This document shows, in pieces, positions 25,549-53,800 of a stretch of 64,000 nucleotides of DNA. The first letter of the stretch is position 1, and every line of letters begins with the position of its first letter. The position numbers and the translations under genes were made by a program. The notes below the pieces were generated by a model, which made no database searches, was not told where the DNA came from, and saw only the letters and a program-made list of their open reading frames with translations. This DNA is from Astropecten irregularis (Eukaryota > Echinodermata > Asteroidea > Paxillosida > Astropectinidae), in assembly GCA_963971285.1 (NCBI GenBank), contig OZ020251.1, forward strand, positions 3,782,001-3,846,000, written 5' to 3'.

Positions 25549-28500
25549 ATGAGGAAGTTTGTGGTTGTACTCGTGGTCATCGCGATTTGCGTCGCCATGG
25601 TTACAGCTGGAAAGAAGGACAGGACCAGAAAGGAACGGCGCAGAGAGGGAAAACGAGGTAAGGCTGACCTCTGACCTCTGACCTTTTAAAGAATAATCTA
25701 TCAAGACAGAATCATATTTTTTTGGAAGACTGCGTGGTGGATTTCCTCAGAAATTACCTGGTTTTCATTCGTATCTCCTCCTTAATGCTTCATACCCTGA
25801 AAAAACATATTACCTGAATACTCCAATTAGTCACAGCCTCTTTGAGTCTTAAGGGGTCATGTTGTGACTGCTTAACTGATGGATGATGAGGTTAAACCGC
25901 TTCATGTTATAAGATACATGGTGCTGATAACCCAAAGGGACGTGCAGTTTCCGTGGAGTAAATCCACTGTGATGCAGAGGATGGAATGATTTTCAATATT
26001 GATCCTGACTTCTGTGCCGGGGCTGTACGTCAGTAACAGTGATGGACACGGGCTTTAAACTCTGACAGGCAACTTGGAGGTAACCAGTCACGCCACGTGC
26101 AAATACGTGGGGTGCTGTGACCTAGTGGTCTGGTGTGTCGTACTCAAGATCTTGGGTTTGAACTCCAGCCATGGGCTATAGTACTTGGTGCTTGCGTTCT
26201 TGGGCAAGACACTTTCATTTGTCAAATATTGCTCCTCTCCACCCAGGTGTAAATGGGTACCTGTTAGGGAAGTGATGGCTTTGTGGTTTGATTAGCCTCT
26301 GTGTGCCCTATGGTTGCCAGTATGGGGCTGTATGCTCCCCAGGGAGTTGAGATGGTTTCAGGAAGATAAATTATGGCCCGATGACCAGGGATGATAGTAA
26401 ATTAGTTTCGCGCAGTAGTAGACTTTTGAATTTTTCTCATGCTTGAGAAATGTTACAAAAAGCATCATCGTGTGAAAGTACACCAATGCTTGAGAGTGAC
26501 CGACGTCTCTGGTGAATCTTTGAGAAATTTCTCAAGCATGAGAAAAATAACTAGCCAGGCATGCGATTATTATTTTTTTCACGCTTGAGAAATCTTACGA
26601 AGTTGCCATCGTGTGAAAGGACACCAAATGCTTGAGAGTGACCGACATCCCTAGTGTATCCCCTTGAAAAATTTCTCAAGCATTAGAATACTTGCCAGGC
26701 TTGCGAGTTTCTCTCATGCTTGAGAAATCTCACGAAAGTGCCATCGTGTGAAAAGACACCAATACTTGAGAGTGACCGACGTCCCTGGTAAATGCTTGAG
26801 AAATTTGTCAAGCATGAGCAAAACTCGCAAGCCTAGCTATTTGTTTTAGTATCATGTGCAGATGCCTTAAAGGGAGCATATAGGATTTGCAAAGATGTGC
26901 GTATTGGCTGAATTTGGTACTTAAACAAAAGTGAAGGTCTTAAACTTCCTTACAGACGTTGTTTCATGTACCTTTTCACGCTTTGTTCATCTGGATAACA
27001 AAAAAAAACAACGGCAGAAATAATCTTGCCACCTCCGAATTCTTCATGGTTACACCACGCTTTCGAAAGTGCTATGAAAAAAATCGTTCGGATGAACGAT
27101 CTTTTTAAAAGACACTAAATCTTGATTTGCTTGAGAAACCCAGCATCTGATGAACCAAGATTTCCCATGGTGACTGTTTGCACTGTTTACGAACTGTTGA
27201 GTTCATTTTCTGTCTCAAACTCAATAAAAACATTTTTGGAGGCCTTGCAAATCCTGTACGCTGCCTTCAAAATAATTATGTGCATGAACCGGCGTAACTG
27301 TTGGGGGCGGTAACCCTATAGCGGATGGTGTGGGAGACGCATGGACTAAGCAAAAAAATCCAGGCAGACTATTAACCGAGATACGTGCTCTCCCGGCCAG
27401 TAAAATGAGTCACTGAAATCGAATTTTGAAACATTTTCAAATTTCATTCCATTTATGTTTTTAACTTAAAATTTCCGTGATAAGTGTATATTTCAGATTA
27501 ACAGAATTATACAACGGAAGGGTTTCATTAAAATTCATTTGGAATGTTTGGATTGGTTGTTTCCTCAATTACGGGGTTTCTTCAACCTTATCATTCATTT
27601 AGAGTATCTTTAAGGAGATTTTAAAAGTGTTGAGGAAAAACACCCATATCTTTAGATGCCAATTTCATAGAGATGCTTAAACACAAAAATCGCTCAAGAA
27701 TGAAAAGTCTTCCTTGATCAAACAGGATTACCAAGCAAATTTTCACGTGATGTATACAGCTTTTGACTTGTATCCGGCCATTGTTTGCTGAGCATAACAT
27801 TCACAAGAAGTTTTGGCTGACATTTCATTTACCAAGGTTTTTGGTGCTTAAGAACAATTTGGTGCTTAATCAGCTTTATGAAATTGGCCACAGATTGTAA
27901 ATTTATATACCCCCTGAGATGTTGTCTTCAGATCAGTCTTTTGGAACCCAGGCTTGAAAAAAGGGGGGGGTACAGTGGAATGACGTCACAGGGCTCACAC
28001 ACTCCTGGTCACGGGGTGGTGACCTGTCATCATCGCCATGGTAACGGAACAATAGCCAATAGCAAACGGCAAAGTTAATTTCCATAATGCCTGCGAGGCT
28101 TTATGGTTTTTGTCTCGTTATTATTATGAAATACTACTCTTTTGGATATCAAGGGCATTTGGGGTCAGTAAATTTGACAGCGCTGTCTTTAGTTAAAGGT
28201 AGTATAATACTTTGGTTTTTATCAAAGAAATACAGATTCATGAGCAAAAATATCAACACAAATCCAGCAACAGTCATCTGTGAAAATTTAAGTCCCATAC
28301 TATGCCCACTTTTTGAGAAAACATTGAAAAACAGCCACAGTATTTCTTAAGTCGTTTCTCTTTTATTTTTGATCTTTTTGCACCAATTTCAGCTTTTCAA
28401 TGTTTTTTTTTCTTTTATAGTTCATTTGATTATTTATACTTCTTATTATTGTTCGCCATGGACCGATTGTGCACCTGTCTCTTAAACTCTGCTCCCCTTG

Positions 28501-31500
28501 TGATGGGAAGGTAATTGATTCCCCTTCCTCCTACCCCCCCCCCCCCCCCCTCACAACATCACAAGGGCCCTGGCAGATCGGAAAACCCCCTTTGGATGGG
28601 TATCGGCACACTAGTGCGTCACCTTCCTGTAGCGCCTATAGCTAGCTACCTAGGTGTGCCAGGTATACATGAGCCCTGGGAGTGAAGAACATAGGGGGCT
28701 GGAAGTTTCAACAAGAAAAACATGTACTAAACTGATGCAAACTGCTCATCAGCCCAAATAAAGACCTGGAATTTTTATAAACTGATTGGAGTCAGGAGGG
28801 CCTGACGCGTTTCGATCCTAGCAGGATCTTTATCGAAGGCTAAATGACAAGAGGACAAGAAAAGTAAAGATACACGTGAATGGATGAGAGGATCTGACCA
28901 AAGAAGGGGTGTAGGAAGGGTGGGGGTTGCAGGTGTGGTCAGAGCATGTTCTTGTCCTCTTGTCATTTAGCCTTCGAAAAAGATCCAGCTAGGATCGAAA
29001 CGCGTCAGGCCCTTCTAACTCAACACAAATCTGAAATGTGCATTGTTTAGTATCACCATGCATAGCGATTTGCATTGTGATCACACTTTTCCTATACAGT
29101 ATTTTTGAGAGTTTGAGACAGAAAATGGACTCAACAGTTCATAAACAGTACAGACGGTCACCATGGGAAATCTTGGTTCATCAAATGCTGGGTTTTTCAC
29201 GGAAATCAAGAACGATCTTTTTAGAATTTCGAAGATTGGGTTTTGCACTTAAGATGAGTTTTATTGCGTTATTGTGAAATCGACCACGTGAGCCTTATAT
29301 TGCTTATTTTCACCGCATATATTTTTCATTATTAAAATCTGTAAGGGACAAAAATGCAACTTCAATAATCCTTTGAGAAGTTCAGGTTTAATAAGCAACG
29401 TTGCATGAAGGCTTCACCTCTGGGATTAACATTAGACCAAATTTGTTCTGAGATATGGGTAATAAAACGGCATTAAAATGCGTTACATGTTCCAAGAAGT
29501 ATCAAAGTTCATGTTTGCCGGCTCTTAATAATGTTTTCACCTTCATAAAGTAAACGCAGAGGACCACGGGGTGCTGTAAATCATGTTTGGTGTTGCTTTT
29601 TCTAAAACAAATAGTCGTGCTACCCAAGCAGTACAACATTTTGGTGCATTTCGTTTTGATCAGTTACTATTTACTCATTTAGCCCATGTGCTATGAAGTA
29701 CAGGAAGGCTAATAAGTTGGAGGCCCTCTCCATCACCTTGTTCTCAAATAATTATTCAGTGTCATTTTTAATGATTCATGTGAAGTGAAATTGTAACAAA
29801 GTTTCTTCCATAGAACTTAGAGGATTTCCTCTATGAAGTTCATAAGAAAAACACTCTAAACATTGAGGTATTCAGTCTTACGGGTTATATCATAATACTT
29901 ATGATATCAAGATATATCAAACATATCAAGAAAGAAACAGCAAGAGTCATCTGTGAAATTCCCAGTCCCATACGGGGTCCACTCTTTTGGGAAAACGGTG
30001 GAAAACGTCCACGATATTTTCAAAGTATTTTCACCGTTATTTTTCATATTTTAAAAGACCCAACTTGATTTTAGTCATTGGTTTTACTCTTTTCTTGATA
30101 AATTCACCACTTTAGGTGAAAAAAAACTTGAACCGTATAATTATTTCTTCCAACACCATCTATCCTCTATAAGTTATAGGTAAATCTGTGGAGATTTCCG
30201 TTTCGGTATGCTACCAAAGTATGATAGTAGGCCTATACCTTAAGGAAGGATATAGGCCTATTGAATGCAATTATTGTGAACAGCCAATAAGGCTTCGAGT
30301 TTCAAATCAGTGGATACGTGGCGGATTTTGATTGGCACTGCTGTGCAGACAGACGTTTTGTCTGTTGACAAAACGGGTATAAAAATAGTAGACTTCTCCC
30401 TCCAGGAAGCATTTGGACCTGACGTCAGTCTGACCGTGTATGCCCTCCTTATGGGGTTTCTTTATGCCTCCCACAAGAAATCAATCTTCATGTTGAAATA
30501 TTAATAATCTTCGTGCAGTGCGTATTGTATTGCCTCTCCTGAGACGGGATAATGTCACATTGTATTCAAGTAAACTGCGTGGATTGACCGATAGATGCCA
30601 GATGTGGTTAAGCCAGATACGGAATCAAGTCACTATGTCGACATCGTGACATTGATTCTGCATGATTTTTGGTCTCAAGTTTCTATACAGACTGAGGAAG
30701 AAAGCATTCCCACACCATGACTGTCAAATGGAAAGATCTTTTTCCGGCTCGTTTCACCGGTGTTAAAATGTATCATTTCGTGGGGAATTCCAGCGACTTT
30801 CCTCCCACTCTCAATCCCTTCCTCTCTCGCTTGGCGCTGGGTCACGTCGTCTGCCTCGAGGAACGAGACGGCACATGAGGGACTCTTAAAAAATATTTGA
30901 TCCTTGACTCTTAGCGCTCTAGACTTTCAGCCTTACTGAGAATAAGCAACAGCTTCAACTTCAGGTTGTCACATACCACACCGATCACGGTCCCTTAAAG
31001 GTATATACCCTGTCAGGTTGGTTAGATTATCATTCTCTAAGTAGCAGACTGAATGAAAATATTTTGCATTGGTGCAAAAGGTAAAGTTATGGAAGTGGTA
31101 TGTCCAGGATCGGCATTAGACTGGAGGGTTACGTTCTTCTGTTGAAACGCAAAGTTGGAGGTAGTTGGAAGTTGGAGGTAGTTGGTCCAAATTCCGTAAA
31201 AGAACCAAGGGGGATCGAGGGGAATGGTGTGGCCTGTATGTTTGGGGATCGTGATTATGAATTCGCTGAACGAAAATGGTCTGCATGGCTGGATTCTCAG
31301 GTTAAGTCTCAGAGTTTTCTGGGTGTCCTCAGACCTGGGTGTATGATCCTGTAGCTGGGTCATACTTCCATAATATATGTTTGTGCACAAATACATATAT
31401 ACATGCACCCTCCCCCTAACCCCCTCCCCCCTCCCCTTGGATCTACGCCCATGTTTCAGTGCCATTGTAGAACACGTGGAACGTTACTCACAATAATATT

Positions 31501-34500
31501 CTTCACAATTATTGTTATTAAGTGCCGAGGTTAACACCATGCTCTTAATCTTACCCAGGAAGCGAAAAGGGGTTTAAAATGTAGTCGCCTCTACTTTTAC
31601 TTCTGGCCATCATTTCTAGGTTGTAACAGTCTTTATCATTCGTTTGTGTAGCCCTTTTAAAGGCAGCGTACAGGATTTGCACTGCCTCCAATAAAAATTG
31701 AGTTTGAGACAGAAAATGGGCTCAACAGTTCGTAAACAGTGCAAACGGTCACCATGGGAAATCTTGGTTCATTAGATGCTGGTTTTTTTTTTCAAAGAAA
31801 TCAAGATTTAGTGTCTGAAAAAGATCGTTCGTCCGAACGATTTAGTAGTATTTCGAAAGCGTGGTGTAAACGTGAAGGATTTGGAGGGGGCAAGATTATT
31901 TTAGCCGTATTTCTGCTATCCAGATGAACAAAGCGTCAAAAAAGGTACATGAAACAACGTCTGTAAGAAAGTTTAAGACCTTCACTTCTGTTTAAGTACC
32001 AAATTCAGCCAAAACGCACATCTTTGCAAATGCTATATGTTCCATTTAAGTACCGAAGGAAAAGCATTTCAAAAATATTTTCACTGAAGCACTTCTGAAG
32101 CTTCCTGCATGGGGATGTCAGCAGAGCTAATAAGCTCTTGAAGGCTGATCAAATCAGTCAGCTACCTGTTCCTTCTTGATGGATTGAGGCAATTTGCTAC
32201 TGGGAATCTTGTCAAGGTTAAAGCTCTGTGCACGTACGTGATCTCAACTCCATGCCTTGATTCAAGCATTTTAGATTGGTGACATTCAGTCTGATTCGAG
32301 GACCGCTCAATTATCGCATCAGATACATTTAAGCAAAATCGTGCCGAAATTAGCGAAAATATGACCAATTAAAAGAGCACACTTTTTAAATACAAAATAA
32401 TTTGCAGTAGGCCTATTCCGGAATAAGTTGTCAATACGCACATAATGTGTACTCAAAGAAAGATGAAAATTGGGTTTTGAGGTTGAGTCATTCAATCTCA
32501 GTTTGTTCTCTCAATTTCAGTCCAATTTTGCTCAAATTCTACATGGTGATAGCCAAGACATAGTTGGATCCCATATCCTGAATATTTAAGTGATAAAAAT
32601 ATTCATATAATAGTTTTCGACACAAAGTGTTTTGGGGACACCCTGTATCTTAAAGGTAATACTTGTCAAAGAAATACAGATTCATGGGTACAAATATCAT
32701 GGAAGACACAGTAACTGTCATCTGTGAAATGTTCAGTCCCATACTGTGCCTACTGTATCTTACTTGATATTTTTGCGCACGAATCTGTATTTCTTTGACA
32801 AAAACCAAGATATGATATTACCTTTAACTAACTTATACGGCAAAATTCGAAACCATGAAACTTTTGAGTATGTTTTTTCTAGTCTGTCCCAATAGTTAAC
32901 CCCCAAGCTATGTGTACGATTCGTGTACAAATCTTGCATTTCCATTCCATCACGTATATTGTATCTTGGCGTCGGCGCGTAACTTGGGGCCTTAGTATTT
33001 TGAATAGATTTGCTTAGTAAACTTTAGGCTATGTTGTAGCGGCGTCCACTCAGAGATATACCCTGACTGTTTTGTTGCCTACTAAGCGAATTTGTTGTTT
33101 TTTGCGTTGGGATATTTTCCCAGCTTGTGTAAGTAATAACATCGGTGTCAATATTCGGTAGTAGTTTATATGTACATTCAGAATATGAACTGCTTTTCAG
33201 GACCGTGAGAAATCTTGTTAAAGGTATAATACATGATTGGTAAAGGTCATAGAACAGCACCCACACTTTGTCCGATCCAGCATGTACATAAAATGATAAA
33301 CCTGTGAACATTGAGCTCAATCGGACATCTGAGTCACGAAAAAAAAACACGAAAAAAACGACTTAATTGTTCTTATAAAACATAAAGAATGGTTTTCATC
33401 TTACGCCGAGATCAAAACTGTTTTTGGTCTTTGTTCTATGGTTTTACTAATTTCCGGATGAATTTATTTATTCATTTTTTTATGTATTCACCATATCCAA
33501 CAGCAACACAGTCGCCAATTACAGGAACTGTTATTAAAAAAAAACATTAATAAGTACAATGAACTTAAAAAATTATATAAATATAAAATATATCTATATA
33601 CATGTCAAATATAATACAATACAAACATTCCGGCAGAAATATTTTAACGGTATGTTTCTACCATCATCATCTTCATATCTTGAAAGATGATACGTCATTC
33701 TGTGAACATTTCTGTTAGGGAAAGTTGCCAGTCCTGTAATGTACCTTTAAGTTGAGCTATTTTCAGAAAGTGTTCCGTCTGGTTTTTTTTTCCTGAGACG
33801 AGAATCACGAGATATTAAACTATAGCGTCTGACACCTAATGCGCAAAACGGTTCCCATCTGATTTTGATCTAATTTCCCAGTATGATTTAGAGATGGACA
33901 TTTATGAATCCTCAGGGGTGTGTTCAGTTTGTTGCTGATGTTAATGTCTTGAATGTAATATCATGTTGCCTGTACTGCTGTTTACTTTAGATTTAGTAAA
34001 TGAAATGAGAATGAAAACTTCACCAAAATAATGGCACAAATCATTATTTTGTGTTTATAGTGCATGCATGAACATTTTTCTCCAACAGGGCGAAAACACG
34101 ACCAGGGGAAAAAAAGTCGGAAAAATTGAATTTCACAAACACCTGTCCCTAATAGCCAGGCGTATTGGGTTGCGCTGTTGGCCCACTTTTGGGGTCTTGC
34201 GACAAATTGGGGATTACTTAGAATAAATCACCGCACCTGGCTGTGTTCAATCACGGGTAATTGTGTGAAAAAATAGGGCGAGAAAGGTCCGGCTAGACGC
34301 GCTGAGACGGTACACCGTGCTTCAGTTTCCACCAAAATAGGCTTCGATGTTTGTGGGAGGAATTTAGACATAGGCCTAGCACTTGTTGTTGCATCTGAGA
34401 TTAAAGGTAATATCATACTTTGGTTTTTATCAAAGAAATAAAGATTCATGGGCAAAAATATCAAGACAGATATAGTATGAGTTAAAGGGTATGAAGATGG

Positions 34501-37500
34501 TGGTGGAAGAAATATACCGTTAAAACCTTTCCGCCTGAAATGGTGTATTTATCCAGAAATTAGTAAAACAACGACCGAAAATATTTTCGATCTTTTAAGA
34601 GATCAAAAATAAAAGAGAAAAGACTTAAAAAATACTGTGACCGTTTTTAACTGTTTTTCTAAAAAAGTGAGCACTGTATGAGACAAAAATGTTCACAGAT
34701 GACTGTTACTGTATCTGTCTTGATATTTTTGCATTTGAATCTGTATTTCTTTGACAAAAAACAAAGTATGATACTACCTTTAAAAGGTCTGTCGTTCTTA
34801 GATAGAGTGAATTGCTTCTTCTATTTGCCTTTAACTTACAGGGTGTAAAGATGGTGATGGTAGAAGCATACCGTTAAAATCTTTCTCCCTAAAAATGTTG
34901 TTTTTATCCAGAAAAGATTCCAACCAATGACAAAAAACAAGTTTGATTTTTTAAAGATAAAAACATAACGGTAAAAACATTTTTTTTTAAATACTGTGGG
35001 CGTTTTGCACTGTTTTCTCAAAAAGTTTCCAAGATTTCTGTTTTGTATCTTCCTTGATATTTTTGCCCATGACCCTGCATTTCTTTGACAAAACAAAAGT
35101 AACCTATTACCTTTAAAGACAAAGTTGGTTTTTCTTTAAAATAATACTAATTTTCGACCTTCTACTTTTCATTATAGATTAATGGCCTCGGTATTGATTT
35201 AGACCATCAATTTCGATCGGCTTTTAAAATTGTTCAGTTGAAATTCCTCAATCAAAAAAGGAAATGCCTATATGAAGCATTTCCTCTACTTATACAAACA
35301 TAGGTCGCGCCTTAATTGTGGTGTCCTATTCCCCATACACACGATTCGGGTTCAAAACGTGCGTCTTTCCTTGGGTATAAGATACTGTTTGGTTAAAGGT
35401 ATACAGTATACAGGGGTCGATGTCACGAAGCCCTGCGATCGATCGTAACTCGAGTTACGAAGGATAACCCGTCGCAGGTGACCTATCCCACGTATGGTTT
35501 CAATGCATCAAAAATCCTACGATTAATCGTAAGTTACGAAGAGTTTGGTGAAATCGACAGAAATGGTCACAGATTGAAGTATCTTTCAGGGTATGAATGT
35601 GGTCCTGGTAGAAACATTGGGTTAAATATTTCTTCCTGAAATATTGGTTAAACAAAGACCGAAAACAGTTCTTATTTCGGGGTAAGATCAAAACCATTTT
35701 AAATGTTTTATAGGAAAAATGAGTCGGGTTTTCGCTATTTTTCTCGTGACTTAGATGTCCGATAGAGCTCAAATTTTCACAGGTTTATCATTCCATGTAC
35801 ATGTAGGATCATACAATAATGTGAGTGCTGTTCTGTGAGCTTTACCAATCATGTATTATACATTTATTACAGTAACTATGTGTGCAGTGTAGCCCCTAAT
35901 TATTCGCTTTCTTGAGCATAATGAATGCTGGTTTGCACATAAGGTATCTCTCGTGTAGAAGTACAAATTATCGTAACGAATTGGACCGGCAGTATCAAAT
36001 TAGGATTCACATACTTATAACCACACTTGCCTATTATACCTCTATCCTCCCTGGTCACTCTGAACCACCCTCCTCCTTTTGTTATGATCCTCTCATCCAT
36101 TTATGTGTATCTTTTCTTGCATATTCTTGTCCTCAAAGCATTCGATAAAGATGGAAACGTCAGATCCTCCTATAACTCCAAGACTTTAACATTGAAAGGC
36201 ATTGACTGAGATGACCCCACCTATTTGATCTATAACTGATTAATGCCTTCTCCTTAATTCCACAGCCCAGCCTCAGGCTGACGCGGCACAACCCCAAAGC
36301 ACGCCAACTGAGGACACGGGTAACCCCAAGCACGTGGAGTCGCCGACGCAACAGGCCTCCAACCAGCCACAGCCCTCACCGGACCAAGCATCCGAACGGC
36401 CCAGGCCCACCGGCGGCCACTCCGGTCAGCGATGCGGCGAGTGGCAGTGGACACCGTGTCAGGTGCGCCAGGGACGGCAGTGCGGCAAGGGGTTGGAGAC
36501 GGCCACCAGGGAAGGAGAGAACTGCAAGAAGAAGGAGCAGACCAGGCCGTGCAGGGTGGAGTGCACGGAGAGGGAGCCAAAGGCAGAGCGTGAGGGCAAG
36601 AAGAAGGGAGGCAGCGAGACCAGAGAACGGGATGCTGGGGCTGAGAACGGGCAAAGGCAGAGGACCCAACCCCCCAGAAAAGAAAATGTGGAGCGACCAC
36701 AGAAACAGGAAGGAAATGACAGGAGTGAGTAGACCTACAAACAACTCCTTCACAACGACCTCTGTTCCTAACTCTTGCACTATAGCACTTTATACTCTCA
36801 ACAAAAAGTGGACAAATAGAGCTGAGTTGAGCATTCATTTGGGGCAACTTGGCTATCGCTACTAGTAGAATTATTCTTCACCTTTTGTTGGTCAATTTGT
36901 TAACAAAACGTTTGCGCAACTCAGTTGATTGTACAAACTTTACGCAACTTCCAATCAATCATTCAGGTTATTGGCAGTGAGTATGTTGACCAAAGGCCGA
37001 GTTGGTTCACTGTTTGTTTATCAACTACTGCTTCATTGTGCCTGGTAACCTGTCATTCATTCTTTGTGTTAAGGTTACCAACAAAGTCGACTAATTGTCG
37101 CCGAAATGGTCCCATACCGAACTCGTCCGTAATATAAGAGTGTATAGCGCCATCTAGTTTTCTGCCTATACGAAATGTGGCTTGAGGCTAGGCTTGGGTT
37201 TTATTTTGCTGCTGCCATTTTGTGTCCTAAATGAAATGAATGGCTTGAGATACACGACGAAGCTGGATCCTTTCTTCAGCTGCGTCGTGTAGCCCAATCC
37301 CTTCATTTCGTTTTATTGACCTCAAATGACGGTAGCGACATAAGTACCAAGCCATAGCCTGAAGGAAGGTTTCGTAAAAATTCTAAGTAAGATTGTTTTC
37401 CCGCCAATTTGACAGAGTGTAAATACAACAAGAAGGACTGGAGCGAGTGCGACCAGCAGACGAGTCTGCAGACGAGAATCTACACGCTGAAGAGTGGGGA

Positions 37501-40500
37501 TCCAGACCGGTGCCAGCCCAAGAAAGTCATCACCAAGCCCTGCGACAAATACCAGCGCCGTTTGGAGAACAAGAATGGTAGGCCAACATTCTTTTTATTT
37601 CGTCCCTATCAAACCTTCAAGAAGAACCAAACTCGTAGAATTTGGGCTGTAACCTACAACGTCTCTCTTCCAGTTAGACTGGAAATGAATCTGCTCTCGA
37701 ACTTAAATTTCACATCAATGCACTCCCTTGTTGAGAAGAATACCTGTGGCCAATTTCATAAAACTGTTAAGCACAAAAAGTTGCTTAGCACGAAAATGTC
37801 TCGCCCAATAAAACAAACCATGCACCATTGAAAATTCCATTTGATATTCATGGTCAGCGAATAACGGCCGAAGAACAATCACAAGTGATACACAACACGT
37901 GGAAATTTGGTTGTTAACCCTGTTTATATTAAGACAGAAATGTCATGCTTAGCAAATTTTTGTGCTAAACAGTTTTATGATATTGGCCCCTGGCTGACAA
38001 AGAATTCAGTGACACTCGTAACAGGTAATATTGTTGAAAAGACATAGGCATAACTGCCCTTTTAAAGGAAAAAGCACATTAATTTCAATAACCAAGAACC
38101 CTTTTCTTTGACTCTCAAACGAACCAGACAAATTAACTTCGTATAAGGGTCTGTAGGTCAGCCCCGAGGGCATTTGAGGAAATCCCAAAGTGCATCCAAC
38201 TGAGACCATTGCAAGGAAGGGGCAGATGCCTGATCTGTCTCTCTATGAGAAACAAGCTCTCAAGTGTCTTCGATGACCCCGGGGCTGAGAGATCCTGGCA
38301 GTGACATGTTGTGGTCATAAGAGACCTTAAACCTTCCGGTCAATCTGTGGCCAATTTCATAGAGCTGCTTAAGCGCCAAAATGTGCTTAAGCACCAAAAA
38401 CCTTGGTAAATAAAATAAAGATGCCAGTCAAAACTCCTTGTGAATGTTATGATCAGACTCAGCAGACAATGGCCGAATACAAGTCAAAAGCAGTATTAAA
38501 AAACATCACACGACATTTTGGTTGGCAATCCGGTTTGATCAAGGAAGACTTTTCATGCTTAAGCACATTTGGTGCTTAAGCAGCTCTGCCAGGAGGGTAT
38601 GATGCTGTCATCGCACGAACTGTCTTCTGTAAGCATTCGCCGATTGACTCTTAACATCACCAATCAGCAATCATCTGAAAAAAAGACGGTTGAATACCGT
38701 CCAAGATGTTACGGTAAATACAGCCGTTTGGATGTGCAATTTAGAACCTTCCTCCGGATTTTGGGGGAGGCCGGCTGGGCCAACTCGATCATCTCACCGA
38801 CCTCGCCGTTCCCTTCTAACTCGCGTCGACATCCCACAGACACCTAAACTCTGGCCTGCTCCTCGGAGATAGCCTTCTCCGAAGCGTGGGTCAGACACGC
38901 ACAATTAGCGCCGGCATCCGACATCTGGGGTGGCTAAATTGAAATGACTCAGCGAATGTAGAGTAGCGAAACGCTCATGAAAAATGACATTCGGCTTTCA
39001 ACTGGTATGACTCAAATTCACTCCCTCTGGCACCCCTACCCCTACCCCCTCCCCCGTCTCCAGCACTACCTCCTCACCCACGTTCTTCATGCCTCTTTCG
39101 AGGAACTAGACGTCACCAAACTATTACGTCCTGGGCTGATGTCCATCAACCAGCGGAAATAATTTAAGACTGCTCGAAAGCCGCATACTGCATCGTGAAG
39201 GTCTCTCTTTATACCTTCAACTTGGCCAGTTCTCCCCCATGGCTACAGAATAGCCTATAGCTCACCAGTTTCGAAGAGTCAATTTATCGTGATTCCATAG
39301 CAGTTGATAAATATATACGTCAGGGGGGATTCTGATTTGTTCAGGGATCTGCTTCCCCAACTCTGGAAAAAGTGGGTAGAGGGCGGAGTTGCTGATAAGA
39401 GGGAGGTGGGACTGACTGACTCAGCGAGTCATTGGACACGTATTATACCGTATCAAACCATTCGCTTGACGTGGAATACTTAAAGGTAGTATCATACTTT
39501 GGTAGCATACCGAAGCAGAAATCTTCACAAATTTACCTATAACTTTACATAGTATAAAGATGTTGATGGTAGCACAACATACCGATACCATTTTTCTGCC
39601 TGAACTGCTGTATATAGGCCTATCCAGAAAAGAGTAAAACCAGTGACCAAAATTATTTTTGATCTTATAAAGATCAAAAATAGAAGAGAAAATGCATAGA
39701 AATACTGTGGCCGTTTTCCACCGTTTTCTCAAAAAGTGGGCACTGTATGGGACTGAAATTTTCACGGATGACTGTTACTGTATTTTTTCTTGATATTTTT
39801 GCCCATGAATCTGAATTTTTTGACAAAAAAACCAAAGTATGATATTACCTTTAAAGGTCGGTCGTTCTGAAATAGAGTGAATTGTATCTAACTGTAGATA
39901 TCTGTATTTTCCAAAGATTATTTCAAAATGTAGCTATGTCATATGTGACAACAATCATGTGTTCCGTGCTCATTACTGTTTTACGGCCTTTTCGAAGCCA
40001 GGCTTGAGGCTAAGACTTGGGACTTATTTCGCTACCGCCATTTGAGGCCACAAGTCTCATTTCGTAAGTGCAAAAGTATTAGAAGAACCTGACGTTTCTA
40101 TCCTAGTATAGTTATGATTAAAGGGATGGTATACAAAACTGGTATTTGCGACAAAACCGTTGATGACAATGAGAGCATATTATGTAGAGTAATCCATCAT
40201 ATACCTTAACTGACAAACCTGTAGAAGTTTGAGGTCAATCAGCCATCTGGGTCACGAGAAAATAGTGCAAACCCGTTTACACATTTCAACGATATTATGC
40301 GTTCATAATAAACCGCTTCGAAGCGATTTATTCCAATCGGAAAATAGTTTCATTTATTTCTCAACAAATAATATGGCATTTCAGACATAAACATTTCATG
40401 GGATGTTTTCTCCTATCATGACCATTATACTGTGTAAGTTTGATGTGAATCTGTGATCTTGCAGTGTATTTTGTCTTACCAATTATGTACCATCCCTTTA

Positions 40501-43500
40501 ACCTTCTCGCAGCCATCCGACTGAATTACAAATGAGTCATTTTAAAACATTTAAAACTTTACAAGGAGAAAACTTCTAATGATATTGTTTTCCCCTGATA
40601 CTTCCAGGTTGCGAGTATGTACTGGGCCAATGGAGCCTGTGCAATACCACAAGTGACATGCGTGAACGGCGGGATACCTTGACCGAGCCTACCAAGGAAG
40701 AGCACGGGTGCCGTGCCGTCAGGGAGATCCACCAGCGATGCGCTGTCGGTAAGCATTTTCCCAAAACTTCCATCTCTGAAGCAAAATACATGTAGAGACC
40801 AATTTTCCTTCTACAATATCTAGATCGAGTAAGACTTGCGGAGACACCATGTATCACACTCTTTTCGGAAGATGTATGGTCCTGAAAAGGACCGACGAGA
40901 GTAGATTATTGACGTTTCGACCAGTGTGCTCTAGTTGTCCTCAGGAGAGAGTGCACATTTGAGCACGACTAGAGCACACTGCATGGCGAAACGTCGAGAA
41001 TCTACTCTCATCGGAGTTTTCAGGACCACACATTTTCCAATTCGTGTAATTCATGATACTTCCGCAAGTCTTACCGGGTACTCATTCTAGTCTCTCCACC
41101 ATGCAAAACTTCAAATCTTACTTACAAAATATATCTTCTATATACGGCGTACCCCTTCCCATTATAAATACCGTCGATTCCAAAAAGTGCACCATAAAGA
41201 GTTTGCAACGTATTGGCCAATCATAACACACGAAATTTGTCCACCCAATGCGCATCTGGAAAGGGTCCACCAATTTCGCACATTCTGATTGGCCAACGCA
41301 TTGCAAACTCTTTAAGGCGCACTATTGTGAATCGCCCGTATTGACCGTTCTTTTGTTTATACACATTGACTGGTGGTTGGCAATACTTGGCATAGGCGGC
41401 CAAATGTTGCAAATCATTTTTCGTCTTCTCGAAAGACGGCGTGACCAAAATCAACATTTTGTGCAAACTTTCCATAGCTGCACAAAATATACATACTATC
41501 ATTGCTTGTGTTGTTTCAATTACATTCAGCATTATATAACACCTAAGTAGATCCTTGTCATTTGATTGGAGGATTGTATGTCACGTAATATGTGATAAAT
41601 AGACCAATTCATGGCTTACGTCACAACCGTTGAAATTTGTACCATCCACCGTGCACTTTTGGTGCCATCCGATTTGTACCATTGCACGCCAGGGACTCTA
41701 ATACGTGATTGGTCAAGCGGCGTTCCATTTATTTGTCACTGCGTGCGCGCGTACGCGTTGGTGTGCAACGCGCGTTACTGTAATAAGAGCAATATAGTTT
41801 GCCAAGATTTTAAGCTTTTTTTGTCTCGCTAACTCTTAAAATGTTATCCTCCAATCAAAATCAAATGACAAAGATCTACTTAGATGTTATATAAAACAAA
41901 TAATGAATGTTTCACATTCGTAGAATGGTAAAAATAATTTCATTCGATGACAGATGGACTGTTCCATTCCACTCGGCTTCGCCTCGTGAAATGGAACAGT
42001 CCATCTGTCACCTCATGAAATTATTTTTACCATTCCACTCATAAACATTCATTATTTGTATAATATCTTTCAATGTTAATTAAACGTTGTGTACAAATTG
42101 TGATTATTTTTTATGCATGGCTTTGATGGATCTCCATAGGTTCCGCCATATTGGTTGGCAAAAACTTGGGCTGTGACGTATTTTGCCTAAAGAAAAGTCT
42201 ATTGTCGACGTTGTCTGTGACCCTAGCTTATATTCCCAGTAAGAAAACTGGGCTATCTGCCATAAAGATCCCACGCGATTTAATTTCCGCAAGGGGAATC
42301 AAATTTGACTTCGCACGAGTCATAAGCAATTTGCATCAAGTAGGATTCTGTCAGTCAATCGAGTTTAAACAAAAACTTCAGAACTTTGATGACTTCTTTG
42401 GATTGCACGTCTACATTGAATATCCTTAATTGGTTCAATTTAAGCCTCACTGAAGTTTTTTGTTTTGTTTTTCAATGTCTGTCAATTTTGCAAAGTCACA
42501 ACAAAATGTGGCCGTGACCTCGAAGACGAAATCTTGAGCGGAGCTGCCACTAGAAAATGTAGATTAAAAACCTCTTATTCATTTCAGGGTCTTCGTTATT
42601 TCCCCGCAAAATAAGTATCACGGTATCGTATATCAGTGTCCATTGGCTCTCCACCTTATAGAGCTTTTGCATTTTCTCTTCAAATGTAATTTCATACTTT
42701 GTCAAAGAAATACAGTGACAGTCATCTGTGAAATTCCCAATCTCATACGGTGTCCACCTTTTAAGGAAACAATGGCAAACTCCCAAATTCTTTTTAAGAT
42801 CAAACGGTGAACAGATTGTAAAAAATTAATACTTTGGGCGTTTTTCACTGTTTTCCAAAAAAGTGGGCACCGTATGACACTGTACATTTCACAGATGACT
42901 GTTACTGTATCTTCCTTGATATTTTAGCCCATTAATCAGTATTTCTTTGACAATGACCAAAGCATGATAATTTACCTTTAACGAACAAAGACTATTAGGG
43001 ACACCACCGAAGTAGGGTTGGGCAGCTCAGTTGTTACGAGCGCCGATACGGTATTCCAGAGGACGTCGCTGGTTCGAAGCCCGCTACAGTCAATTTTTGT
43101 CTTTGTTAACTTTGAACTGTTGTAATCTTGTTTTCTTTGAACTTTGTGAAGCTTGTGTGTACAGTTGGGGCGAGTGGAGCGACTGTGATGAAGATGAGGG
43201 TAAGCGGTCGATACTTGGCACCTTAGAGCAAGAGGATATCACTCCAGAGGACTGCGAACCTACCGTTACAAAGACCAAGCCTTGCTATGGCAAGAATGGA
43301 ACAGGTAACAAGTCAAAGGGTGAAATCACAATGCATTACACTATTATCATTCCTGGAGCCAATTTCATAGAGCTGCTTAAGCACCCAAAGTTGCTTAAGC
43401 ACTAAAAACCTTGCTAAATAAAATCAGTATGCCAGCCAAAACTCTTTGTGAATGTTATGCTCAGCAAACAATGGCTAAAAGCATTAAACATCACATGAAC

Positions 43501-44891
43501 ATTGGTTGGTAATCCTGCTTGATCAAGAAAGACTTTACATGCTTAAGCAATGTTGGTGCTTAAGCAATTTTGGCTCTTAAGCAGCTCTATGAAATTGGCT
43601 TCCGGGTGACGAGGAGCACTTAATGAGCGTTTTGTTTAAGGACTCAAGTTCCATTAGCCCGTGGCTGGATTCGAACCCACTATTGTTGTGGGGTCAGAGT
43701 CAGATCAAATAACAAGGGGTGGGGTATATTCAAGACGACATAAAAAAAACTGAATATAAAAATGCAGACGTTCCAACGAGAAATTCAGTCAGTCGAGAAA
43801 ATGGAAATTCCACTCGATGTTTTGCACCGTGCTTCAACCAAAAATCACGGCGGCTCTTCGCACGAAAACCCCCTAATCCCTAATATTTCCGTAACTGAAT
43901 TGAAAGAGAATTGTTTTCGGGAAAGCAATGATTAACCATTCTATGTTCCATATTGTCATTCTGTTCAGGTGCATTATGATAACCCCCATTGGGTTCTAAT
44001 CAAGTACTTCTCTATCACTTCCTGTCAACCCCGCCCACACCCTCCCATGCTATTTCCTCTGATCCTAATCCTACTTGTTTTCACACAGTCTCCAGTTCTG
44101 TTTAGTCTGATCTTCCTTTTGATCCCCATCCTGTCTGTTCCTCATTTGGCCCTTCCAACCCTTTTGCCATTGCATTCACCCCGGGGAAGAGGATTATGCA
44201 CATATTCATGCCAAACAATTTTGTTGCATTACCCATTCTTACTCTCAATTTTTTTGCGTCGGCAAAAATAAAAAATGTGACGCCAAAATAAAATGCGACA
44301 CCAAAGACACAAATAAAACAAAATGCGATGCGTATTTGGCGGCACTTAAAGGTAGTATCATACTTTGGTAAAAAACCAAAACAGAAATGTTCACAGATTT
44401 ACATATAACTTTCAGGGTTTGAAGATGGTGCTGGTAGAAACCTACCGTAAAAAAAATCCGCCTGAAATGGTGTATTTATTCAGAAATTAGTAAAACAACG
44501 TCCGAAAATCTTTTTGATCTTTTAAAAGATCAAAAATTAAAGAGAAAAGACTTAAGAAATACAGTGGCAGTTTTTCACGATTTTCTCAAAAAGTGGGCAC
44601 CGTATGTGACTGAAATGTTCACAGATGACTGTGACTGTATCTTCCTTGATATTTTTGCCCATGAATCTGTACTTCTTTGACAAAAACCAAAGTATGATAC
44701 TACCTTTAATGGAACACGATATAATAAAGGATATTATTGTCTTGATTTTCTCGACAGAAAAATGCTTCTTCGGTCCCTGGAGCGGCTACGGGAAGTGCGT
44801 CGGAGGTTACAAGCTGCGTACAAGGAAGCTTCTTGTGGGTGACAGGCGGTGTGAACTGAGGGCCAGTCATGCCGTTCCCTGCAAAGGGTGA
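25549..44891 (+). CDS. Midkine/pleiotrophin-family secreted protein with one N-type and four C-type modules
   Basis: Six coding exons: 25549-25657, 36266-36724, 37416-37577, 40608-40748, 43152-43304, 44758-44891. Every intron is GT-AG and phase 1; the product is 385 residues. Residues 1-20 are a signal peptide ending VTA, followed by a basic stretch (KKDRTRKERRREGKR). Residues 38-92 are a Gln/Pro-rich linker. Residues 93-136 are the N-type module with the family's six cysteines (93,101,109,123,132,136) and CGEWQW. Residues 138-189 are a Lys/Glu/Arg-rich linker. Four C-type modules follow, each with four cysteines: 191/201/222/232, 245/255/278/288, 292/302/325/335 and 344/355/373/383, most with 10-(21 to 23)-10 spacing. 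Vertebrate midkine and pleiotrophin have one module of each type and act as heparin-binding growth factors. Heparin-type ligand binding here is inferred; the vertebrate basic C-terminal tail is absent. The last module diverges most (11-18-10 spacing). Confidence 0.9.
26107..26412 (+). mobile_element. tRNA-like SINE (GTGGTCTGGTGTGTCG family), intact copy
   Basis: A tRNA-like head (GACCTAGTGGTCTGGTGTG, then GGTTTGAACTCC) is followed by the body GGGCAAGACACTTTCATTTG, GTGTAAATGGGTACCTGTTA and the tail GGCCCGATGACCAGGGATGA. It is a useful reference for the interrupted copy at 61435-62300; a minus-strand copy lies at 58575-58770. Confidence 0.75.
26425..26833. repeat. Three tandem palindromic units (CTCATGCTTGAGAAAT)
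   Basis: Three units of about 135 bases, each bounded by CTCATGCTTGAGAAA and its reverse complement with AATGCTTGAGAGTGACCGAC inside. A divergent relative lies at 59885-59995 in a GPLD1 intron. Confidence 0.85.
26877..27270. mobile_element. TTAA-type MITE (GCAGCGTACAGGATTTGCA family), copy 1
   Basis: Inverted relative to the copy at 31657-32049. They share ATGGTGACTGTTTGCACTG and CGATCTTTTTAAAAGACACT-like blocks. The left boundary is TTAAAGGGAGCATATAGG; the right TTAA is degraded to TTCAA. Confidence 0.75.
27657..27889. mobile_element. MITE, GCCAATTTCATAGAG subfamily (CTTAAGCAC)
   Basis: Left GCCAATTTCATAGAGATGCT and right CAGCTTTATGAAATTGGCC, with sub-terminal GCTTAA repeats. The interior resembles copies at 38347, 43357 and 62827. 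Confidence 0.8.
28193..28410. mobile_element. TTAA MITE fragment (ATACTTTGGTTTTTATCAAA)
   Basis: Left end TTAAAGGTAGTATAATACTTTG plus the family interior (CATGAGCAAAAATATCAA, GTCATCTGTGAAAAT). The right end is missing. A C18 run follows at about 28532-28550. Confidence 0.65.
28727..29022. mobile_element. Foldback element (GGCCTGACGCGTTTCGATCC family)
   Basis: AGGGCCTGACGCGTTTCGATC and GGCTAAATGACAAGAGGACA at the left are mirrored by TGTCCTCTTGTCATTTAGCC and GGATCGAAACGCGTCAGGCC at the right. Single arms also occur at 19390-19500 and 60040-60145. Confidence 0.85.
29905..30240. mobile_element. Degenerate TTAA-family MITE
   Basis: Interior blocks AGAGTCATCTGTGAAATTCC and CTCTTTTGGGAAAACGGTGG, right end ACCAAAGTATGATAGTAGG. 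The terminal TTAA at the right is preserved as CCTTAAGG after an apparent short insertion. Confidence 0.55.
31657..32049. mobile_element. TTAA-flanked MITE (GCAGCGTACAGGATTTGCA family), copy 2
   Basis: TTAA at 31657-31660 and 32046-32049 flank AAGGCAGCGTACAGGATTTG and GCAAATGCTATATGTTCCAT. The interior is similar to the reverse complement of 26877-27270, with a further fragment at about 29085-29220. Confidence 0.8.
32650..32827. mobile_element. Short TTAA-flanked MITE (deletion derivative)
   Basis: 178 bases flanked by TTAA. Both sides carry GTCAAAGAAATACAGATTCA in opposite orientation, so much of the element is a hairpin. Confidence 0.75.
33218..33750. mobile_element. TTAA-flanked MITE (TACATGATTGGTAAAGG family) with internal AT-rich insertion
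   Basis: TTAA at 33218-33221 and 33747-33750. The ends AAAGGTATAATACATGATTG and GTCCTGTAATGTACCTTT are weakly inverted. The family interior is interrupted by an AT-rich block at about 33455-33620. Confidence 0.7.
34401..34783. mobile_element. TTAA-flanked MITE (ATCATACTTTGG family), near complete
   Basis: TTAA at 34401-34404 and 34780-34783. TIRs AAGGTAATATCATACTTTGG and CAAAGTATGATACTACCTTT. A good reference copy for the family. Confidence 0.85.
34825..35117. mobile_element. TTAA-family MITE, left end missing
   Basis: Shares GGTGTAAAGATGGTGATGGT, ACTGTGGGCGTTTTGCACTG and a right end CCTATTACCTTTAA with the preceding element. It lies head-to-tail with it about 40 bases away. Confidence 0.65.
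35411..35562. repeat. Palindromic element (TCGATGTCACGAAGCCC family)
   Basis: GGTCGATGTCACGAAGCCC and AGTTTGGTGAAATCGAC are the arms, with ACTCGAGTTACGAAGGATAA inside. A MITE fragment with GGGTATGAATGTGGTCCTGG follows to about 35870. Confidence 0.7.
36725..37415 (+). other. Intron 2 of the midkine-like gene, with palindromic element 37165-37375
   Basis: The palindrome pairs CGAAATGTGGCTTGAGGCTA with CCTGAAGGAAGGTTTCG-like sequence and has a central TGCGTCGTGTA/TACACGACG stem. A fragment of the same element lies at 39988-40065. Confidence 0.6.
37748..37990. mobile_element. MITE, GGCCAATTTCATAAAACTG family
   Basis: TIRs GGCCAATTTCATAAAACTGT and ACAGTTTTATGATATTGGCC. It lies in intron 3 of the midkine-like gene. 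Confidence 0.8.
38347..38588. mobile_element. MITE, GGCCAATTTCATAGAGCTG (CTTAAGC subfamily), right end truncated
   Basis: Left end GTGGCCAATTTCATAGAGCT. The right end stops at GTGCTTAAGCAGCTCTG without the final TATGAAATTGGCC. Confidence 0.75.
38590..39479. other. Unique intronic stretch, GC-richer than its surroundings
   Basis: Intron 3 of the midkine-like gene. No exon with family cysteines is visible. Locally raised GC at 38740-38900 includes the small inverted pair CTCCTCGGAGATAGCC and CTTCTCCGAAG. A control element is possible but unsupported. Confidence 0.3.
39480..39854. mobile_element. TTAA-flanked MITE (ATCATACTTTGGT family)
   Basis: TTAA at 39480-39483 and 39851-39854. TIRs AAGGTAGTATCATACTTTGG and CCAAAGTATGATATTACCTT. 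Confidence 0.85.
40118..40501. mobile_element. TTAA-flanked MITE (AGGGATGGTATACAAAACTGG family)
   Basis: TTAA at 40118-40121 and 40498-40501. TIRs AAGGGATGGTATAC and GTACCATCCCTTT. It ends 106 bases before exon 4 of the midkine-like gene. Confidence 0.8.
40826..41121. mobile_element. Large foldback element (CGAAACGTCGAGAATCTACT family)
   Basis: GGTCCTGAAAAGGACCGACG, GAGAGTAGATTATTGACGTTT and CTAGTTGTCCTCAGGAGAG at the left are mirrored at the right, ending with CATTCTAGTCTCTCCACCAT. Confidence 0.8.
41170..41337. repeat. Inverted repeat around AAAGAGTTTGCAACG
   Basis: GTGCACCATAAAGAGTTTGC and ATTGGCCAATCATAACAC pair with TTCTGATTGGCCAACGCATT and GCAAACTCTTTAAGGCGCAC. It abuts the split MITE that follows. 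Confidence 0.75.
41534..41893. mobile_element. Nested TIR element inside the split MITE
   Basis: TATAACACCTAAGTAGATCC and CATTTGATTGGAGGAT at the left are mirrored by ATCCTCCAATC, AAATGACAAAGATCTACTTA and GATGTTATA at the right, giving arms of about 40 bases around 280 bases of unrelated sequence. Confidence 0.85.
41897..42062. mobile_element. Nested long palindrome next to the TIR element
   Basis: Arms of about 75 bases contain CAAATAATGAATGTTT, GAATGGTAAAAATAATTTCA and GACAGATGGACTGTTCCATT. The loop is CTCGGCTTCGCCTCG. Confidence 0.9.
42690..42983. mobile_element. Degenerate TTAA-family MITE
   Basis: GTCAAAGAAATACAGTGACAG at the left; AGTGGGCACCGTATGACACT and a right end AAAGCATGATAATTTACC followed by TTTAAC. 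Confidence 0.6.
43015..43100 (+). mobile_element. tRNA-derived SINE just upstream of midkine-like exon 5
   Basis: Box-A-like GGGCAGCTCAGTTGTTACGA, box-B-like GGTTCGAAGCCC, then the tail GTCAATTTTTGTCTTTG. The T-rich tail runs into the acceptor of exon 5 at 43152. It is not a functional tRNA: there is no complete acceptor stem. Confidence 0.7.
43357..43603. mobile_element. MITE, GCCAATTTCATAGAGCTGC (CTTAAGCAC subfamily)
   Basis: Ends AGCCAATTTCATAGAGCTGC and GCAGCTCTATGAAATTGGCT. It starts about 50 bases after exon 5 of the midkine-like gene. Confidence 0.85.
43605..44345. other. Intronic stretch with SINE remnant, no gene
   Basis: A minus-strand SINE remnant (CCGTGGCTGGATTCGAACCC near 43660-43700) and a pyrimidine-rich block at 44020-44190. 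No exon seen. Confidence 0.4.
44346..44709. mobile_element. TTAA-flanked MITE immediately before midkine-like exon 6
   Basis: TTAA at 44346-44349 and 44706-44709. TIRs AAGGTAGTATCATACTTTGG and CCAAAGTATGATACTACCTT. It ends 48 bases before the last exon, leaving just enough room for branch point and acceptor. Confidence 0.85.
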
Positions 44892-45109: not shown

Positions 45110-45431
45110 AGCACACGGTTTTGAATGGCGCCCTCTTTTGATTTAAACAAGAAACTTTGTTATGATGTCAGTATAATTATTATTTTGTACACCGAAAATA
45201 AAAATTTTTTTACTGAAATCTGGGAAGCTGGAAAGCTAATCATGAGCAAACGACCGGTGGGGAAATCCGGGAGATGTTGTCCATGCCGAATATTCTTCTG
45301 ACTCCGTGTTCCTTTCAGGAATAAATCGCGAACCACGCACCAAGCCAGAGTTGTAGTGCATTTAGATCGATAAACACCACCACAGTTTCTTGTTTTAAAC
45401 AAAAGAGGGCGACACTCAAAACCGTGTGTTC
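45110..45431. mobile_element. TIR element (GCACACGGTTTTGAA)
   Basis: GCACACGGTTTTGAATGGCG, CCCTCTTTTGATTTAAACAAG and AAACTTTG pair with CAGTTTCTTGTTTTAAACAA, AAGAGGGCGACACTC and AAAACCGTGTG. It lies just past the stop codon of the midkine-like gene. Confidence 0.85.
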
Positions 45432-50800: not shown

Positions 50801-53800
50801 CCGAATAAGGGTCAAATTTGCACGGACAAACTTGTTTCATTTTCAAACGCTTATATAGGTTAACTGTTAACCTGAATTTTGTTTTGCAATCTGTGACCTG
50901 ATATGAATTAATTACCCAATTTTTGCCTAGCACTAGTCAAGTTAGATGTATAATGTTGTTTGTGTTTATGATTTGTTTGTTTGTTTATTTGTTTGTTTGT
51001 TGCTTATCCATGTAGCTCATCCTTGACAACCAAGATGCTTTCCAGGGAGGCAACCCTTACCCAGATGCCTTTTACCCAAACATATGCAAAGGAGGTAGGT
51101 CAGAGGTCATCTGTGTGGTCACAAGTCTGCTGATGCAGTATCATGAACATACTCAGAATCTTGCCTCACCCTGGCGGAATGTAGCCTATGTGATAGATGC
51201 ACTCACCAAATACAGTGAGCAAGCATCTATCACATGCGTGCAGATTTCCTGATTAATCATGTTAATTATGCGAGCCAGCCCAGCGCTGACCGCTCTAAGT
51301 TTTGACCAATCAGGGGCCATTTACTTTCGTACCGTGTGGTGAGTGCGTCTATCAGAAAGATAGCTGATGCCGCGCGGATGCGCAAAATTCACCAATCAAC
51401 ATTCTCCATCATGATCCAGATGGAAATTTTCTCAAAACAGATCTGATTGGTTAATGTGCCACGTTGCTTAAAATTTGCATGCATGCATGTATCAGACATT
51501 CGTACGAAGTTGCACGGAGTAGAATGGGTGAAGGTGGAATAACCCAAATCTTTCAATTTTGCAAGTGTTTGTTAGTTAAGGCCACCTATCATGTCTAAGT
51601 GTCAAATAATGCCTAAGTGTTTCTTCTGTGAAATGTCGCAGCTCCCAAGCATCATTTTACCTCATAATTTCCGTCAAAAAATCAAAGCTATGTGGGACTT
51701 TGCCAATATAGGTCTGTATACATGTAGCTCAGTTGGCAGAGCGCCAGTGCAGTATTTCAGGGGTCTCAGGTTCGAATCCGACTCCCATCAATTTTTGTTG
51801 TTCACTTGTCTTTCCTTTTTTCTCCTAGGTAAATTCCACCAGGTTTCGGAAGACACTCATTGGGTGCCGTTTCTCAATGCAACCATCAACTACATCAGGA
51901 GGGTGTATCCCAAGCCTTGGGATAAGGTATGTCCCACCCGTTTATTTAAAGGTACAGTACAGGATAGGTAACATACCCAAACAGAAATGTTCACAGATTA
52001 ACATATAATTTTCAGGGTATGAAGATAGTGCTGGTAGAAATATACTGTTAAAATATTTCTGCCTGAATTGGTGTATTTATCCAGAAATGAGTTAAACAGC
52101 AATCGAAAAGAGTTTTGATTTCGGGGTAAGATCAAAACCATTCTTTATGTTTCATCAGAAATATTGAGTCGGTTTTTCACTGTTTTCTTGTGACTCATGA
52201 CTGAGCTCAAATTTTCACAGGTTTATTAATTCATTCACATATTAGATCAGACAAAGTGCGAATGCTGTTCTGTGACCTTTACTATTCATGTACATGTATT
52301 ATACCTATAATTACATGTTTCCAGAAATCGACCTGCGACCAAATTAGTCAAATTTAGCCACAACTTGCTGTAGTTCCTTTGATTATCAACAGCCAATAAT
52401 ACAGCCACTGAAAAGACAGGCCAGGCCAGGGCCTTCAGTCTTCCACTATCTTCCTCATGTCAGCCTTCAACTTCAATACAACAGATCTGCTCTAAATTGC
52501 TCAAGCTAGGCTTCTGGGTTACTGTCCATGATCAATGTGGACTCAATCTGTCATTCAGGTTTAACTGCCAACTATGATCCAGGACACAGCCGGGGCTTGA
52601 AAGTTTAATACACGATTGGTAAAGGTAACAGGACATCACTCACACTGTGTCTGATCCAGCACTTACATAAAATGATAAACCTGTGAACATTTGAGCTTAA
52701 TTGGACATCTGAGTCACAAGAAAATAGCGACAACCTGACACTATTTTTCTTATACAACATGAAGAATGGTTTTGATCTTACCCAGAGATCAGAGAAAACT
52801 GTTTTCGGTCTTTGTTTTACTAATGTCTAGATAAAAACAGCATTTCACGTGGAAATATTTAATAACGGTATGTTTCAACCATCACCATCTTCATATCCTG
52901 AAAGTTTTACATATAAATCTGTGAACATTTCTGTTTGGGTATGTTACCAATCCAGTACTGTACCTTTAATATTGATGTACTACAAGGCTTGGGATTATAG
53001 CAGCCTGAGATTCCAGGCGAAGCTCAGGCCTGGCCAGGCATTTCAGTGGCTGGACCCAACCAGCATTTAAGTTTCTCTCCCTAAGGTTAATTTGCTTGGT
53101 ATATGTCAGACTGCTTGAGTGCGTCACCATCTTGAACAAATCTTCGCTGTTTTTTACTTCGCAGGAAACTGAGAAGCTGGTAGTGTTCATGCTGGGCTTT
53201 GTGTCCCACCAAGTTGCGGATGTTACCTGGCATAGTCTTGGTATAGACCAGGGCTTCCTTACCACCATGGGAGATGTGAGTACCTGAAAAAGGAACTTGG
53301 GGAAGGCAGGGAGGCAATTACCTTAATGCCACTTGCTCATGGGCGGGTTTGATTCCCATGGTCATTGCCTTGGTGCCCCTGGTTATTGCCCTGGTGTCCC
53401 TGGTCATTGCCTTGGTGCCCTCTAGTCATTGCCTTGGTGTCCCTGGTCATTGCCTTGCTGCCCCTGGTCATTGTCTTGGTGCCCCTGGTCATTGCCTTGG
53501 TGTCCCTGGTCATTGCCTTGGTGCCCCTGGTCACTGCCTTGGTGCCCCTGGTCATTGCCTTGATTCCCCTGGTCATTGCCTTGATTCCCCTGATCATTGC
53601 CTTGGTGCCCCTGGTCATTGCCTTGGTGCCCCTGGTCATTGCCTTGGTGTCGTCTAGTTATTGCCTTTGTGCCCTGGTCATTGCCTTGGTGTCCCTGACC
53701 ATTTTTCAATATCTATTTGTGAACTCTTAATCTACATTGTACAGTTTTGTTTTGTAGGTTTCTATAAATTGATCAACAACCTTTGACATTGAATGTCAAA

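Follow-up and report, generated by a model that had tools for sequence, protein, structure and literature searches.

Midkine and pleiotrophin are usually treated as two-domain vertebrate cytokines. A locus of the sea star Astropecten irregularis (contig OZ020251.1, positions 3,782,001 to 3,846,000; these 64,000 nucleotides are referred to as the window) raises the question whether a member of this family can carry an N-type module followed by a whole series of C-type modules, and whether each module in such a series is still of C type and suited to glycan binding. The gene in question, here called the MK/PTN-like gene, probably codes for a single secreted protein of the midkine/pleiotrophin family whose C-type module was repeated downstream of the N module by old exon duplication, module 4 being a putative member of the thrombospondin type-1 repeat (TSR) superfamily. 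We assign this reading a probability of about 0.68.

The gene was delineated by script in the window as six predicted exons on the plus strand, with a start codon at 25549 and a stop codon ending at 44891. Its introns of 10608, 691, 3030, 2403 and 1453 nt all have GT-AG borders and all interrupt the frame in phase 1; exons 2-5 are phase 1-1 exons and exon 6 is terminal. The joined frame of 1158 nt encodes 385 residues without an internal stop. The predicted chain consists of a hydrophobic leader, a basic N-tail, a proline/glutamine (P/Q)-rich linker, a six-cysteine N module, a charged hinge and four further modules, in that order. The initial annotation had proposed an N module with six cysteines and four in-phase exons with four cysteines each, and both its coordinates and this arrangement are reproduced exactly. 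The features are as follows (a slash marks the exon end in donor sites):

25549-25657, plus strand: exon 1, containing the start codon and coding for a hydrophobic leader followed by a basic N-tail (GKKDRTRKERRREGKR); donor GAG/GTAAGG, ends in phase 1
36266-36724, plus strand: exon 2, with linker rich in proline, glutamine and threonine, N-type module and charged hinge; acceptor ccacag, donor GGA/GTGAGT
36433-36564, plus strand: N-type module, six cysteines (7-7-13-8-3), net charge +3; PF05196 (trimmed) and pleiotrophin 2n6f
37416-37577, plus strand: exon 3, C module 1 (C1), cysteine span 37418-37543, net charge +4; PF01091, structure model and comparison
40608-40748, plus strand: exon 4, C module 2 (C2), cysteine span 40610-40741, net charge -1, N-glycosylation sequon NTT
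43152-43304, plus strand: exon 5, C module 3 (C3), cysteine span 43154-43285, net charge -8, sequon NGT past the module
44758-44891, plus strand: exon 6, putative module 4 (C4), TSR-like, cysteine span 44763-44882, net charge +6, stop codon, no C-tail
45197-45202, plus strand: AATAAA, first candidate polyadenylation signal, 306 bases past the stop codon

A second AATAAA occurs at 45320. The leader, hydrophobic as judged by eye, is a candidate signal peptide, and the N-tail, formed by the 16 residues at the end of exon 1, contains 10 K/R and 3 D/E (net charge +7). The donors agree with the consensus at 6-7 of nine positions, and a crude pyrimidine score puts four of the five acceptors in the best 10% of all AG sites in the window. 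The GC content of the exons is 0.51-0.64, compared with 0.33-0.48 in the 150-base flanks, and reaches 0.68 at third codon positions. Past the exon 3 donor (37577 onward, in intron 3) no stop interrupts translation for 84 residues, including 15 K/R and 2 D/E, and translation into intron 5 is open for 33 residues; a form retaining intron 3 would consist of N and C1 with a basic tail, resembling the vertebrate layout.

Assignment to the midkine/pleiotrophin family is supported, at the level of sequence, by the N module (when trimmed) and by C1-C3. The Pfam cut-offs are 20.4 bits for PTN_MK_N (PF05196), 25.3 bits for PTN_MK_C (PF01091) and 21.6 bits for TSP_1 (PF00090). A 51-residue stretch of the N module, trimmed of its low-complexity flanks, scores 23.3 bits with PTN_MK_N and matches pleiotrophin in phmmer searches (2n6f, 24.7 bits; 8voh N chain, E 2.5e-5). 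With PTN_MK_C, C1 scores 52.2 bits (E 7.9e-14), C3 36.4 bits (E 6.9e-9) and C2, by a thin margin, 27.1 bits (E 5.5e-6); three stretches of the full chain exceed the cut-off. C3 also matches midkine-a (E 6.7e-6) and C2 midkine-b (E 0.034), while the TSP_1 score of C3 (10.6 bits) lies under the cut-off. When the module under test is left out of the profile, recovery is strong for C1 (E 1.7e-9) and C3 (E 2.7e-8 to 3.2e-9) and weak for C2 (E 0.0013-0.0033, the best unrelated frame scoring 0.016-0.16). The modules are 25-38% identical in pairwise alignments, and when residues are shuffled with the cysteines fixed, the pair score is equalled by none of 300 shuffles for C1-C3 and C1-C2 and by 3 of 300 for C2-C3. 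A profile of all four modules retrieves eight sequences at E<=1 from all PDB chains; the first five are midkine or pleiotrophin (E 7.4e-8 to 1.8e-6), with F-spondin following at E 0.26.

The cysteine spacing in the N module is 7-7-13-8-3, compared with 7-6-13-8-3 in pleiotrophin, and that of the four-cysteine modules is 9-20-9 in exon 3, 9-22-9 in exons 4 and 5 and 10-17-9 in exon 6, compared with 9-21-9 in pleiotrophin. Six matches to a loosely defined pattern, C-x(4,8)-W-x(1,6)-C-x(14,28)-C-x(6,12)-C, occur in the six frames of the window; four are the modules, which lie in order on a single strand, and two are on the minus strand. In 100 copies of the window generated from a first-order Markov model the mean is 0.28 matches and the maximum 2 (78 copies with none, 16 with one, 6 with two), a generous contrast, the pattern having been drawn up after the modules were known. 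The linkers measure 54 residues from N to C1, 12 from C1 to C2, 3 from C2 to C3 and 8 from C3 to module 4, and two residues follow the last cysteine. No further C-type module is found in the introns or downstream within the window, where the best unrelated frame has an E value of 0.32. A recent duplication was rejected, as exons 2-6 have no match elsewhere in the window (blastn, E<=1e-4).

The identity of module 4 is less firmly established. Its C-type assignment, tentative as it is, rests on the Cys/Trp pattern and on one motif, together with the phase-1 acceptor and a fold predicted to be of TSR type. The motif lies at position Cys2+6, where module 4 reads L-R-T-R, pleiotrophin L-K-T-R and C1 L-Q-T-R, and structure models predict for both module 4 and C1 a three-stranded fold of the thrombospondin-repeat type. 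The pair score is equalled by 8 of 300 cysteine-fixed shuffles for C1-C4 and by 22 of 300 for C3-C4. Module 4 is probably, but not demonstrably, a diverged C module within the TSR superfamily; the architecture is one N and three C modules by Pfam and one module that is TSR-like in its predicted fold.

The modules differ markedly in charge. Within the cysteine spans the net charge is +4 in C1, -1 in C2, -8 in C3 and +6 in module 4, and the N module (9 K/R, 6 D/E) carries +3. The proposal that the last module has diverged in basic charge is therefore mistaken in detail: exon 6 encodes the most basic module, and the acidic one is encoded by exon 5. According to a study on pleiotrophin (PMC8773689), its C domain has basic clusters formed by K84/R86/K107 (cluster 1) and K68/K91/R92. 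Every one of the four modules is basic at two of the three cluster-1 places, in differing combinations, so that a part of the glycan-binding residues may have been kept in all of them. It is nevertheless unlikely that all four bind glycosaminoglycan, because C2 is close to neutral and C3 is acidic; strong glycan binding is unlikely for C3 in particular. The multivalent binding that had been suggested for the whole series is plausible, as judged from charge, only in the case of N, C1 and module 4.

Several observations weigh against the reading proposed here. Module 4 matches no Pfam family at E<=10, TSP_1 and PTN_MK_C included, and no PDB sequence at E<=10. Of the modules that the initial annotation placed in the family, profile search upholds N and those of exons 3, 4 (thinly) and 5, and not that of exon 6. 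In comparison with four family profiles, 206, 297, 174 and 22 of 1000 cysteine-fixed shuffles score as well as module 4, which exceeds its shuffles with one profile of the four. Module 4 is absent from the best seven rows of all seven profiles built without it, the C2-C4 pair score is equalled by 209 of 300 shuffles, and a single hhalign comparison of C1-C3 with C4 gives a probability of 0.9% (E 0.062). PTN_MK_N finds no match at E<=1 in untrimmed exon 2 or in the 385-residue chain, and the genome-wide PTN_MK_N search missed the window's own N module; the placement of the N module therefore depends on trimming. The acceptor of exon 5 is mediocre, one third of the AG sites in the window scoring as well, and the joining of the exons, above all across the 10.6 kb intron 1, is a prediction from sequence. 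Finally, glycan binding by C2 and C3 is disfavoured by their net charges.

An old duplication of phase 1-1 exons would have multiplied the C-type module downstream of the N module. The protein would be secreted and tethered to sulfated glycosaminoglycans on cells or in the matrix by its basic N-tail, N module, C1 and module 4, and in this state could work as an extended ligand or a matrix linker. The neutral C2 and the acidic C3, separated by three residues, may form a rigid spacer or present a face that binds proteins rather than glycans, and the length of the P/Q linker and of the 54-residue hinge would supply reach. A more speculative and rather unlikely elaboration is a bipolar modular ligand, in which the glycan-binding basic parts (N-tail, N, C1 and module 4) flank C2 and C3; these two would have lost glycan binding and taken up a basic partner or another part of the protein instead, so that head-to-tail assembly along glycosaminoglycan chains is regulated and its valency tuned by skipping of the phase 1-1 exons.

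Other explanations of the locus differ in their account of module 4 or of the exon series. Module 4 might be another module of the TSR superfamily, gained by exon shuffling, so that the protein would combine N and three C modules with a foreign TSR. This deserves serious attention although it is the less probable account: TSP_1 has no match to module 4 at E<=10, the Cys3-Cys4 spacing of 9 and the L-R-T-R motif fit pleiotrophin and C1, only 8 of 300 shuffles equal the C1-C4 pair score, and exon 6, with its phase-1 acceptor, adjoins the C exons. The uniform phase of the introns, which makes exons 2-5 of class 1-1, would also allow exons 3, 4 and 5 to serve as splicing cassettes, yielding isoforms with varying module number; early-ending forms, possible in view of the open reading into introns 3 and 5, could include a vertebrate-like N+C1 protein. 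However, phase 1-1 exons are common among extracellular modules, and the modules differ so much in sequence and charge that they are not interchangeable copies, which leaves the cassette explanation doubtful.

An improbable alternative is that the main role lies in innate defence, the product being a cationic secreted antimicrobial and not a growth factor. A review (PMC6163309) describes midkine and pleiotrophin as bactericidal and Drosophila Miple2 as strongly antibacterial, and basic charge is found in the N-tail, C1 and module 4; the acidic C3 and neutral C2 do not fit such a role. Very improbable is a division into two genes, with exons 1-3 forming a vertebrate-like N+C1 gene and exons 4-6 a second one. 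Intron 3 does span 3.0 kb, and the 84-residue read-through tail could finish the short form, but the phase-1 acceptor of exon 4 fits exon 3, the frame is open across every junction, and exons 4-6 start without a leader as judged by eye. A single family member with serially duplicated C modules remains the preferred reading.

The MK/PTN-like gene is possibly the sole family gene of its genome, as judged from searches of 475,729,200 bases in 168 contigs, in which the window corresponds to C15:3782001-3846000. At E<=0.001 the PF01091 search finds only C1 and C3 of the MK/PTN-like gene (two of eight scored candidates); it missed C2, and absence elsewhere is unproven. The N module search yields one match from one candidate, and five weak PTN_MK_N rows (E 1.5-6.9) fall under the cut-off. 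The second row of the module-4 query (E 1.4, contig C24) has two of the four cysteines and no tryptophan at the conserved place and was rejected as not module-like; the third row of the C1 query (C15:1981987, E 0.28) contains a stop. In these limited searches with PF01091, PTN_MK_N, C1 and module 4, no second N module or second family gene is convincing. Human MDK and PTN adjoin diacylglycerol-kinase and muscarinic-receptor genes (PMC3267162). Linkage to diacylglycerol kinase was not found here: among the best 13 candidates scored, all nine DAGK_acc matches lie on contigs C14, C16, C23 and C27 and none on C15.

Repeats and other genes are found around the MK/PTN-like gene. An element resembling a short interspersed nuclear element (42989-43113, with the box-B-like sequence GGTTCGAA) ends 38 bases upstream of exon 5; a copy 78% alike lies at 59406-59525 and a partial one at 51726-51807. 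A repeat of about 80 bases (42900-42982) has ten further matches in the window, one of which (44630-44709) lies just upstream of exon 6. On the minus strand, 7116-9141 and 13494-15270 hold two similar neighbouring copies, apparently of one gene, whose F5/8 type C exons score 27.8 bits, slightly short of the cut-off of 28.2, and 33.1 bits, above it; between the frames of each copy lies a 15-base tandem repeat that reads Thr/Glu/Pro (7856-8139 and 14202-14800). Frames with FG-GAP repeats at 60175-61601 on the plus strand (34.7 and 40.1 bits) presumably resemble GPLD1 or an integrin-like propeller, and a minisatellite with 16.3 copies of a 21-base unit occupies 53355-53697.

Elsewhere in the genome, mitochondrial COX1 lies on C168 (16,335 bases; 901 bits against mammalian COX1). 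In this comparison AAA stands at Asn in 5 of 5 cases, aligned AAG at Lys in 4 of 4, TGA at Trp in 13 of 13 and AGA at Arg in 0 of 7; ATA, found ten times (at 3 Ile, 3 Val, 2 Met, 1 Leu and 1 Ala), is not decisive. Reading AAA as Asn is a property of the echinoderm/flatworm mitochondrial code (table 9); together with an animal COX1 of such similarity to the mammalian one, it makes an echinoderm source very probable. A COX1 without in-frame stop on the small contig C131 (102,890 bases) perhaps derives from a bacterial associate or contaminant, and a COX1-like stretch with seven TGA codons at C25:9951047-9952018, in a contig of 14.4 Mb, is probably a nuclear copy of mitochondrial DNA.

Compared with vertebrate pleiotrophin and midkine (PDB entries 2n6f, 8voi, 8voh, 2lut, 2luu, 1mkc and 1mkn), the predicted protein has a six-cysteine N module of near-identical spacing and four-cysteine C modules with the conserved tryptophan and part of the cluster-1 basic residues. 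The initial annotation was right to contrast it with the single module of each type in vertebrates: the vertebrate MDK/PTN layout of one N, one C and a basic C-tail is not found here. Instead, several C-type modules are present, one of them acidic, a P/Q linker lies behind the N-tail, there is no C-tail, and C1 is preceded by the long hinge, whereas in pleiotrophin 2n6f 9 residues separate the last N cysteine from the first C cysteine. With thrombospondin type-1 repeats (TSP1, properdin, F-spondin, BAI1, Sema5A) module 4 and C1 may share a three-stranded fold, which is predicted for both; unlike in those repeats, TSP_1 stays below its cut-off on C3 and has no match on module 4.

The literature search, which covered listings and abstracts outside subscription papers, returned no echinoderm protein with N plus three or four C-type modules of split charge, and is no proof of novelty; a sea urchin study (PMC10131483) counts PTN_MK_N and PTN_MK_C among its searched domains, the available passage giving no result. 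The closest precedent is Drosophila Miple1/Miple2, for which three papers (PMC3267162, PMC6163309, PMC9530663) report repeated C-type motifs, so that serial C-type motifs are not new in kind. Unlike Miple1/Miple2, known here from published descriptions and not from sequence comparison, the sea star protein keeps a recognisable six-cysteine N module. With its N module and serial C-type modules, it shows that the C type can increase in number and that its copies can drift apart in charge. As a gene of an invertebrate deuterostome it would help to establish when N and C became paired, and its naturally occurring combinations of modules could be used to ask which of them binds glycan and which a receptor.
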